In this document: one piece after another, positions 25,870 to 28,587 of the stretch
How the letters are laid out: every line of letters starts with the position of its first letter
How positions within the stretch are numbered: position 1 is the first letter of the stretch
From: Halolamina sediminis
GTDB lineage: Archaea; Halobacteriota; Halobacteria; Halobacteriales; Haloferacaceae
Direction: 5' to 3'
NCBI RefSeq assembly: GCF_001282785.1
Contig: NZ_CVUA01000001.1
Location: 2,666,001-2,730,000, forward strand
Length of the DNA: 64,000 nt
The notes under the pieces: model-generated
Seen by the model: the letters and a program-made list of their open reading frames with translations, nothing else
What the model was told of the DNA's origin: nothing
The model's database searches: none
Program-made: the position numbers and the translations under genes

Positions 25870-26475
25870 CTACAGCTGGGTGTTCGTCTCGATGTCCTCG
25901 GCGGCCTCCTCCAGCCCCGACTCGCGGGCGTCGGCGGCGTGGCTGTCCCGGAGGTCCGCGTCGGTGAGGAGTTCGGCGAACTCGTCGACGAAACGGCCGT
26001 TCGCGCGGGTCGAGCGCCGGTCGGCCGCGATCACCTGCGAGTAGTGCTCGACCGTCTCGCGGTCCACGTCCAGCCGCTCGGCGCGCTCCTCGAGGGGCAC
26101 GTCCGCGACGATCAGCTCCCGGAGCTCGTCCATCGGGAGCGGGGCATCGCGGTCGCTTTCGCGGACGAGGTGGAGATCCATCCGTGCCCGGAACACGGTC
26201 GCCTCGTCGGTCCCCAGCGCGTCGGCGATCTGGCTATCGCCCTCGCCGGCGAAAAAGTGCGTCACGGCCCGGACCAGCGCGTCGTCGTCGAGCCCAGACT
26301 CGAACGCGTACCGCTCTCGCATCCGCCCGACCAGCTCCAAGATCCGTGCCTCGGCGTCCTCGGCGGCGACCGTGTCGGCGAGATCGCCCCGATCCTCCGC
26401 CTGATCCTCGGTCACCTCCTCGGCGCCCGTGGTCTCGACGAACAGGTCCCGGAGCTCCTCGGTTTGTTCGTCCAT
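25870..26475 (-). CDS. Haloarchaeal acidic helix-turn-helix protein (conditioned-medium-induced protein 4-like)
   Basis: A 201-residue very acidic protein. It opens MDEQTEELRDLFVETTGAEE, which resembles from memory the haloarchaeal family named conditioned medium-induced protein 4. Two helix-turn-helix-like segments can be seen: EGDSQIADALGTDEATVFRA and VPLEERAERLDVDRETVEHY. It may be a regulator responding to cell density, but this is only a family-name inference. The ATG at 26475 begins the recognised N-terminus and the gene diverges from bioY by a 102-bp gap that contains the BirA-type operator. Confidence 0.6.
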   Translation of the reverse strand: MDEQTEELRDLFVETTGAEEVTEDQAEDRGDLADTVAAEDAEARILELVGRMRERYAFESGLDDDALVRAVTHFFAGEGDSQIADALGTDEATVFRARMDLHLVRESDRDAPLPMDELRELIVADVPLEERAERLDVDRETVEHYSQVIAADRRSTRANGRFVDEFAELLTDADLRDSHAADARESGLEEAAEDIETNTQL

Positions 26476-26532
26476 AGGGGTGAACGGACGTGCCACGAGC
26501 GAATAAGGGTTGGGTAGCGCCCGGGCCACGCG

Positions 26533-26566
26533 CTCGTAAACCGTAGCGTTAAGGTGGGTTTACGAG
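26533..26566. promoter_or_regulatory. BirA-type operator overlapping the bioY TATA box
   Basis: CTCGTAAACC at 26533-26542 and GGTTTACGAG at 26557-26566 are perfect inverted arms separated by 14 bases. The published biotin-repressor consensus, as I recall it, is TTGTAAACC-N14/15-GGTTTACAA, differing by one base per arm. The spacer contains GCGTTAAGG, a TATA-like element 27-33 nt before the bioY GTG start. Binding of a BirA-type repressor here would block TBP/TFB access, giving biotin-dependent shut-off of the bioYMN genes. Confidence 0.85.
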
Positions 26567-26577
26567 AACCGTCGGGC

Positions 26578-27162
26578 GTGTCAACCGCAACCGACTCCGT
26601 CGACCTCGTCGGCGACGACGTCGTCGTCAACCTCGTCCGCGCCGCGCTGCTGGCGGCGCTGATGGGTGCGTTCGCGTTCGTCTCGTTCCCCAACCCACTC
26701 AGCCCGGGCGTCCCCGTCACCGCGCAGGTGCTGGGCGTGTTCCTCGCGGGGATCTACCTCGGCCCCGCGTGGGGTGGGTTCGCGATGGCCCTGTACGTAC
26801 TGGCCGGCGTGCTGGGCGCGCCCGTCTTCTCGGGCGCCAGCGCCGGACTTGGAGAGATATTCGGGCCGACCGGCGGCTACCTGCTCTCCTACCCGTTCGC
26901 GGCCGCGCTGATCGGCGCGATCGTCCACGGCGCCGACGGGCTGGTCGATCCCGAGACGGTCTCGCTGCCGCGGCTGGTGGCCGCGATGGCTGGCGGCGTG
27001 CTCGTCATCTACGGGTTCGGCATCCCCGTCTACTGGTACTACCTCGACACGAGCTTCGTCGCCGCCGTCTTCGCCGCGGGCGTCGCGTTCGTCCCCGCCG
27101 AGCTGGTGAAGATGGCCGCCGCCGTCGGGATCGTCCGCTCCGACGAGGTCCAGGCGACCTGA
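26578..27162 (+). CDS. bioY: BioY, biotin-binding S component of an ECF transporter
   Basis: A 194-residue membrane protein with about six transmembrane helices. Typical BioY segments are ALMGAFAFVSFPNPLSPGVP, VTAQVLGVFLAGIYLGPAWG, GAPVFSGASAGLGEIFGPTG and YLLSYPFAAALIGAI. It captures biotin from outside and works with the BioM ATPase and BioN transmembrane coupling protein encoded just downstream. The GTG at 26578 is chosen as start because it is placed correctly relative to the TATA box inside the BirA-type operator; a GTG 24 bases upstream lies within the operator. The stop is 1 base before the bioM GTG. Confidence 0.95.
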   Translation: MSTATDSVDLVGDDVVVNLVRAALLAALMGAFAFVSFPNPLSPGVPVTAQVLGVFLAGIYLGPAWGGFAMALYVLAGVLGAPVFSGASAGLGEIFGPTGGYLLSYPFAAALIGAIVHGADGLVDPETVSLPRLVAAMAGGVLVIYGFGIPVYWYYLDTSFVAAVFAAGVAFVPAELVKMAAAVGIVRSDEVQAT

Positions 27163-27163
27163 C

Positions 27164-27883
27164 GTGCTCGAACTCGACGGACTGGTCCACGAGTACGACG
27201 ACGCCCGCGCGGTCGACGGCATCTCGCTGACGATCCCCGACGGGCAGTTCCTCGTGCTCTGCGGGGCGAACGGCTCCGGGAAGTCGACGCTCGTCCGCCA
27301 CCTGAACGGGCTGCTCGAACCCGACGCGGGCCGCGTACTCGTGAACGGGACCGGGGCGACGGAGGACCCAGTCGCCGCCCGAACAGCGGTGGGGATGGCG
27401 TTTCAGGAGCCCCGCGACCAGTTCGTCGCCGCGACGGTCGGCGGCGACGTGCGATTCGGCCCGGAGAACCTCGGCCTCGACCACGACGAGATCGACCGCC
27501 GGGCCGAAGAAGCACTCGCCGCGGTGGGGCTCGACGGCCGGGGAGACGACCGGATCGAGACGCTCTCGGGCGGCGAGCGCGAGCGCCTCGCTGTCGCGGG
27601 CGCGCTCGCGATGGAGCCCGACCACCTCGTGCTCGACGAGCCGTTCACGGGGCTCGATTCGCCCGCACGCGACCGCCTGCTCGGCCACCTGCGCGACCTC
27701 CACGCCGACGGCACGGGGCTGATCGTCGTGACCCACGACCTCCGGGACCTGCTCGGCGACGCCGAGCGCGTGGTCTGTCTCGTCGACGGGCGGGTCGTCG
27801 TGGACGCGCCCCCGAACGGGGCAGTCGCGGAGCTCCCCGACTACGGCGTTCGCGTCCCCGAAACCGAGGCAGCGACCGACTGA
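27164..27883 (+). CDS. bioM: BioM, ATPase of the biotin ECF transporter
   Basis: A 239-residue ABC ATPase: Walker A GANGSGKST (about residues 38-46), Q-loop FQEPRDQFVAATV, signature LSGGERERLAVAGAL, Walker B HLVLDEPFTGLD and switch His in VVTHD. The Q-loop PxxQ pattern and the close relation to cobalt/ECF A components fit BioM. It starts with GTG one base after bioY and its stop overlaps the bioN start (TGATG), so the three genes form one coupled operon. It powers biotin uptake at the inner face of the membrane. Confidence 0.93.
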   Translation: MLELDGLVHEYDDARAVDGISLTIPDGQFLVLCGANGSGKSTLVRHLNGLLEPDAGRVLVNGTGATEDPVAARTAVGMAFQEPRDQFVAATVGGDVRFGPENLGLDHDEIDRRAEEALAAVGLDGRGDDRIETLSGGERERLAVAGALAMEPDHLVLDEPFTGLDSPARDRLLGHLRDLHADGTGLIVVTHDLRDLLGDAERVVCLVDGRVVVDAPPNGAVAELPDYGVRVPETEAATD

Positions 27884-28587
27884 TGCTCCGCTACGCGCCC
27901 GGCGACTCGTTCGCTCACCGACTCGACCCGCGGACGAAGCTGGCGGTCCAGCTCGCGTTCGCCGCCGCCGCGTTCGCCCACACCGACCCGCGGGGGCTAG
28001 CGGTGCTGACCGTCGTGACCGGCGTCGCGCTCGCGAGCGCGCGGCTCTCCCCCGTTTCGGTGCTGTGGGGTTACCGCTTCCTGCTCCCGCTGCTCGCGGC
28101 CGCGGTGCTGTTCGAGCTGGTGACGCTTGGCCCACCGTGGATCGAGCCGGCGGCGGCGGTCGACCCGCTGCTCGCGAGCTACCGGACACTGCTGATCGTC
28201 GCCGTCGCGGCGGGCTACGTCCGGACGACCGCGGCCCGGGAGTCCCGCGCTGCGGTACAGTGGGCGATCCCCGGGAAGCCGGGGCGGCTGCTGGCTGCGG
28301 GCGTGGGGCTCGTCTTCCGCTTTCTGCCTCTGTTGCGGCGTGACGTGGCGGCGATCCAAGACGCCGAGCGGGCGCGGCTGGGCGACGAGCGCCCGACCCG
28401 CGAGCGGCTGGGGACCGTCGGCGCGGCCGGGCTGAACCGAGCGTTCGCGCGGGCGGACCGGCTGGCGGCGGCGCTCTCGGCGCGGTGTTTCTCCTGGAAC
28501 GCGACGCTGCCGCGGCTCCGGTTCGGGCGCGTCGACGTGCCGGCGCTGGTGGTGGTGGCGGCGCTGGTGGCGTACGTGTTCGGGTGA
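27883..28587 (+). CDS. bioN: BioN, transmembrane coupling (T) component of the biotin ECF transporter
   Basis: A 234-residue EcfT-type protein: five or so membrane helices (FLLPLLAAAVLFELVTLGPP, LLIVAVAAGYVRTT) followed by the cytoplasmic coupling helices with Ala-Arg-Gly-like motifs, here ERARLGDER and FARADRLAAALSARCF, that contact the ATPase. The opening LDPRTKLAVQLAFAAAAFAH is the usual EcfT N-terminus. Last gene of the bioYMN set; the next gene has its own TATA-like element. Confidence 0.9.
   Translation: MLRYAPGDSFAHRLDPRTKLAVQLAFAAAAFAHTDPRGLAVLTVVTGVALASARLSPVSVLWGYRFLLPLLAAAVLFELVTLGPPWIEPAAAVDPLLASYRTLLIVAVAAGYVRTTAARESRAAVQWAIPGKPGRLLAAGVGLVFRFLPLLRRDVAAIQDAERARLGDERPTRERLGTVGAAGLNRAFARADRLAAALSARCFSWNATLPRLRFGRVDVPALVVVAALVAYVFG

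Follow-up and report, generated by a model that had tools for sequence, protein, structure and literature searches.

A predicted BirA operator at the bioYMN promoter

Positions 26533–26566 of the window, the 64,000-nucleotide stretch of Halolamina sediminis DNA analyzed here, are very probably the BirA operator of the bioYMN promoter, where a dimer of BirA carrying biotinyl-AMP would lie over the BRE and TATA box and block TBP and TFB. At this predicted operator, a bacterial-type vitamin repressor would meet a eukaryote-like TATA/TBP promoter. The element, which was assigned no strand and is conserved in relatives, consists of two 10-base arms around a 14-base spacer (26543–26556); the left arm CTCGTAAACC occupies 26533–26542 and the right arm GGTTTACGAG occupies 26557–26566, both read on the plus strand, and the full layout is CTCGTAAACC GTAGCGTTAAGGTG GGTTTACGAG. 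A sequence-only reading of this DNA had proposed the inverted repeat CTCGTAAACC-N14-GGTTTACGAG, one base per arm away from the biotin-repressor consensus and with a TATA-like GCGTTAAGG in its spacer. Sequence and coordinates of the repeat were exact, and GCGTTAAGG lies at 26546–26554, within the spacer. The consensus used in that reading was also correct; it matches TTGTAAACC-[N14/15]-GGTTTACAA, printed for delta-proteobacterial sites upstream of biotin genes in the cited passage (PMC545781), from which the operator differs by one mismatch in each 9-base arm. The spacing of 14 falls within the consensus range of 14–15.

The exact pattern occurred once in the window and never in 100 shuffles. 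When the 2,835,858-base genome was scanned for GTAAACC-N14-GGTTTAC, we found one perfect match, at bioY; no match had a single mismatch, one had two and 25 had three. The operator is the only copy with 0–1 mismatch in the genome, and it stands at a biotin-transport gene. The reversed control pattern with N14 gave seven matches, fewer than the 25 of the three-mismatch class. The N15 variant gave 16 matches compared with 11 for its control, the best having two mismatches. Open frames of at least 140 codons cross all 25 N14 three-mismatch matches, the N14 two-mismatch match (inside a frame of 607 codons) and the N15 two-mismatch match, which by itself does not prove coding. One three-mismatch site (L381:1001-1028; G000:C1:2587825-2587852) is intergenic, approximately 93 bases 5' of the ATG of a frame that appears tubulin-like by eye; this downstream gene is apparently unrelated. 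Perfect 10-bp inverted repeats are frequent in the GC-rich window (23 with spacers of 3–30, three of them N14); therefore, the distinctive feature of the operator is its sequence, not its palindrome.

The bioYMN locus and its divergent neighbor

The operator is followed by a compact run of three plus-strand genes. The first, bioY (26578–27162), encodes the biotin-specific ECF component (Pfam BioY, PF02632, E 1e-34) and starts with a GTG 11 bases downstream of the operator end. It is followed by bioM (27164–27883), the ECF ATPase, which matched ABC_tran and, below their cut-offs, the NCBIfam ECF ATPase models, and by bioN (27883–28587), the ECF transmembrane coupling protein or T component (PF02361, CbiQ). 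The nearest named BioY proteins are those of Halolamina, with 86–90% identity, among the matches listed (80 of 176 relatives). A longer bioY frame from 26554 would have its start inside the operator, and the N-termini of relatives fit 26578.

On the minus strand, a divergent neighbor (25870–26475) was matched by neither Pfam nor NCBIfam models at E 0.001. The TATA-like element of this neighbor, located by eye at 26502–26507 on the minus strand, is 25 bases outside the operator, and control of this gene by the operator was rejected on that basis. The N-terminus of its product is MDEQTEELRDLF; a similar N-terminus, judged by eye, adjoins bioY at three further loci (L016, L017 and L274), and the pairing of this gene with bioY may be conserved.

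No bioB over the cut-off was found in the host genome, where the one match scored 34.5 bits against a cut-off of 225; the host should therefore depend on biotin import. A single operator at the importer would fit the need of a biotin auxotroph, which the host is likely to be; the regulon probably comprises one site and one operon.

An N-terminal HTH in the host BirA

The sequence-only reading had named a BirA with an N-terminal HTH as the check on its proposal, and such a protein is present (Pfam HTH_11, 36.1 bits; cut-off 25). HTH_11 is followed by BPL and BPL_C, all over the Pfam cut-offs, which is the domain set of group II. The group II ligase-repressor is defined by an N-terminal DNA-binding domain in the cited passage (PMC4016012). 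The genome encodes one HTH-BirA (G000:C1:2080311-2081342), and a second BPL_LplA_LipB match belongs to a lipoyl-ligase-type protein (PF21948).

In phmmer comparisons with solved repressors, the alignments covered the HTH (1bia, query 18–173; 6apw, query 17–174), and the top solved matches of the host BirA were archaeal ligases without HTH. The host HTH alone gave weak matches to solved BirAs (E 0.027 and 0.25), ranked behind NiaR and designed TIM barrels. Among the NCBIfam models, the general birA_ligase was exceeded (175.1 bits; cut-off 83.1), and birA_repr_reg (43; cut-off 70) and the BirA equivalog (139.6; cut-off 362) scored below their cut-offs. These repressor and equivalog models may be tuned to bacteria.

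The operator is conserved across relatives

PF02632 was found in 167 of the 170 genomes of the family. From the 167 genomes with bioY, we sampled 71 bioY upstreams in 71 genomes, comprising the 30 best-scoring loci, 40 genus-covering regions and the window. Of these upstreams, 67 (65 with N14 and two with N13) had a site with at most three mismatches of 14 where it was expected, compared with 0/71 at a control place and 8/1420 shuffled windows. The four upstreams without a site came from two genera, one containing G004 and G005 and the other G159 and G160. In the wider class, we examined another 57 upstreams, that of G161 and 56 from beyond the family, and 53 of these had a site with three mismatches or fewer (shuffled, 16/1140). 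As exceptions, G242 and G197 had four-mismatch sites, and G255 and G161 had none. BirA was detected in 61 of 65 genomes chosen from the class; the other four (G170, G171, G202 and G214) were also without BioY.

When both samples were pooled (128 upstreams, 11 families), the site was present in 120 of 123 upstreams from genomes with an HTH-BirA and in none of the five from genomes with an HTH-less BirA. The Fisher p for this association was 2e-7, a value that ignores kinship; the independent events number two. Three of the 120 sites had a spacer of 13 bases, and the other 117 had one of 14. The presence of the HTH was defined as an alignment to the host BirA starting within its first eight residues, which held for 122 of the 123; the HTH was checked in the genomes of 119 site-bearing upstreams, that of G095 being masked by Ns. 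In G013 and G092, the HTH is in a different frame from the remainder of BirA. Because the site tracks the BirA HTH (including the two independent losses described below), these counts support the reading of the repeat as a BirA operator.

In G255, which has a BirA with HTH, the bioY without an operator (L272) is flanked by dnaK and dnaJ and may have been acquired separately. In G172, G177, G213 and Halobacterium salinarum (G430), a second BirA-like ligase, which matches from residue 72–79 only, was found beside the HTH-BirA.

We also examined 80 named genomes of 176 relatives, many of which overlap with the genomes of the 128-upstream survey. Of these loci, 75 had a site with at most three mismatches within 130 bases of the match start; Halobacterium salinarum had two mismatches and Haloferax species had none. 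In L336, the site lies further upstream. No site was found in L349, which is probably the same record as G161. L342 had only a five-mismatch site although its BirA has an HTH, and Halorientalis marina (L295) and Haloglomus halophilum (L334) had no site although their BirAs carry the HTH. BirA was examined in six of the named genomes. That is, in the cases checked, the site goes with the HTH, but the HTH does not always go with the site.

The HTH and the operator were lost together twice

Among the matches listed, at least six HTH-less BirAs were found in the family, in at least two genera. These proteins align to the host BirA only from residue 64, or from residues 48–62 (in G161, from 94 or, weakly, 57). 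At Pfam E 0.1, no HTH was detected in the BirAs of G004, G005 and G158–G161, and BPL and BPL_C were found in all six. The five upstreams from genomes with an HTH-less BirA (G004, G005, G159, G160 and G161) had no site, and no bioY was seen in G158. In a catalytic-domain tree of 45 rows, the HTH-less rows require two separate losses, and a single loss appeared in 0 of 200 bootstrap trees. The HTH and the operator were thus lost together twice, independently, and the two HTH-less genera represent natural controls. The nearest relatives of the HTH-less groups (g2; G022) have kept the HTH, with an operator that is weaker (three mismatches) or has N13 spacing. In four promoters without a site, TTCAA, TCTAA or TTAAT was kept approximately 27–28 bases 5' of the start, as judged by eye.

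A repressor with an HTH other than BirA could in principle read the site, as other HTH proteins exist in haloarchaeal genomes and weak matches to the BirA HTH occur elsewhere. However, the site sequence fits the BirA consensus, and the site disappeared along with the BirA HTH on both occasions, making a different repressor very improbable.

A TATA-like element lies inside the operator spacer

In haloarchaeal leaderless promoters, the TATA box is about 27 bases 5' of the start codon, which is also the transcript start. The TATA-like TTAAG of the window (26549–26553, plus strand) occupies spacer positions 7–11, and its center is 27 bases 5' of the GTG. To define the register, we used 111 distinct N14 spacers from 117 sites in 70 genera and 11 families. 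The motif [TC]TNA[AT] occurred at register 7 in 66 of the 111 spacers, whereas no other register had it in more than two, and shuffles gave no more than 12; 45 spacers, and the TTAAG of the window itself, do not fit this strict form. Of the 63 sites for which a start was assigned, 52 had the center of the TATA-like motif 27–28 bases 5' of the start codon and the other 11 had it at 17–22 or 31 bases; two N14 sites received no start under the start-assigning rule. The placement of the TATA box inside the operator spacer is well supported by these counts. In the position table of 65 sites, the final C of the left arm is followed by R-A-A, which resembles the haloarchaeal BRE; the last C of the left arm and the bases after it may therefore overlap the BRE. 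For Haloferax volcanii, 72% of protein-coding transcripts are reported to be leaderless, and 'CGAAA' and 'TTWT' have been proposed as the haloarchaeal BRE and TATA elements, respectively, in the cited passages (PMC4983044).

The frequency of perfect inverted repeats in the window would agree with a chance repeat, or with an RNA hairpin or attenuator. However, conservation was specific to the sequence and occurred at a fixed place and spacing, and the site is 5' of the expected leaderless start and so would not be transcribed. Because the repeat lies upstream of that start and is conserved by sequence, we rejected the attenuator or hairpin, and we regard chance or an RNA structure as extremely improbable.

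Operators at bioB and the mode of repression

We scanned 391 genomes of the class with the exact pattern, which matched in 93 genomes; the control matched in one. Among 17 exact-match loci that were read, 11 were at bioY and six at bioB, and the identity of bioB was indicated by TIGR00433 over the cut-off in all six. In these bioB loci (L146, L147, L148, L159, L177 and L179), the operator is found where the coding frame begins, and its right arm encodes VVY(E) in or close to the first codons; the longest bioB frame of L146 starts four codons further upstream. One of the genomes (G252, L148) has the bioB site and an HTH-BirA and gave no bioY match. Thus, the two haloarchaeal arrangements differ: the site at bioB is downstream of the likely TATA box (by eye, 6/6), whereas the site at bioY encloses it.

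The BirA proteins of E. coli and B. subtilis are the paradigm of control by a biotin ligase that is also a repressor. From this paradigm and from haloarchaeal promoters, we infer BirA binding, the corepressor, steric exclusion and the transcript start. When biotin is plentiful and the carrier proteins are biotinylated, BirA with biotinyl-AMP would dimerize, and each HTH of the dimer would read one operator arm. The dimer over the BRE and TATA box would prevent TBP and TFB from loading, and the importer would not be made. When biotin is scarce, BirA would be used as a ligase and the operator would be free, allowing a leaderless bioYMN transcript from, or a few bases off, the GTG at 26578.

Alternatively, BirA may bind without excluding TBP and may block a later step, such as polymerase recruitment or clearance, or act from the flank of the TATA box. 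The bioB operators downstream of the likely TATA box imply that BirA can act without enclosing it. However, at bioY the TATA-like motif keeps a fixed operator register in sites from 11 families, and we consider this alternative unlikely. Exclusion of TBP and TFB by the BirA dimer is the reading that we prefer for bioY. In haloarchaea more generally, bioY probably has a single element in which operator and basal promoter are interleaved, with the left arm extending into the BRE, and for which BirA and TBP/TFB compete. Selection would maintain the arms only in the presence of the BirA HTH; after loss of the HTH, the arms would decay and a constitutive TATA promoter would persist.

Relation to known systems

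The haloarchaeal operator is similar to bacterial BirA operators, as described in the cited passage, in its consensus arms, N14/15 spacing and position before biotin genes (PMC545781). It differs in that an archaeal TATA/BRE promoter lies inside the operator. In addition, the haloarchaeal arms mostly begin TCGTAAACC, whereas the bacterial consensus arm printed in that passage is TTGTAAACC (PMC545781).

BirA sites in Archaea had been proposed in earlier work. The study by Rodionov, Mironov and Gelfand in 2002 reportedly includes bioY as a member of the regulon and describes a strict link of the HTH to the sites. According to its title and to papers that cite it, the BirA signal is conserved in Eubacteria and Archaea (gr.314502). 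As such control was already proposed in 2002, the archaeal setting is not new as an idea, and the Halolamina operator belongs to a known type of biotin control. The bioYMN locus has been named for Natrialba magadii (PMC3403918); the Halolamina locus has the same three genes, and the cited passage is silent on regulation. In the titles and abstract openings of open-licence literature, among the matches listed, we saw no BirA-binding experiments in haloarchaea; nor did we see, in these titles and abstract openings, a set to which the 2002 study does not belong, the TATA-enclosing geometry or the joint losses of HTH and operator. The added value of the present analysis is this geometry together with the paired losses.

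The sites of Haloferax massiliensis (L316) and H. gibbonsii (L329) match GTAAACC-N14-GGTTTAC perfectly and have TTAAA as the TATA-like spacer sequence, so the model in which BirA would exclude TBP is testable in a tractable genus.
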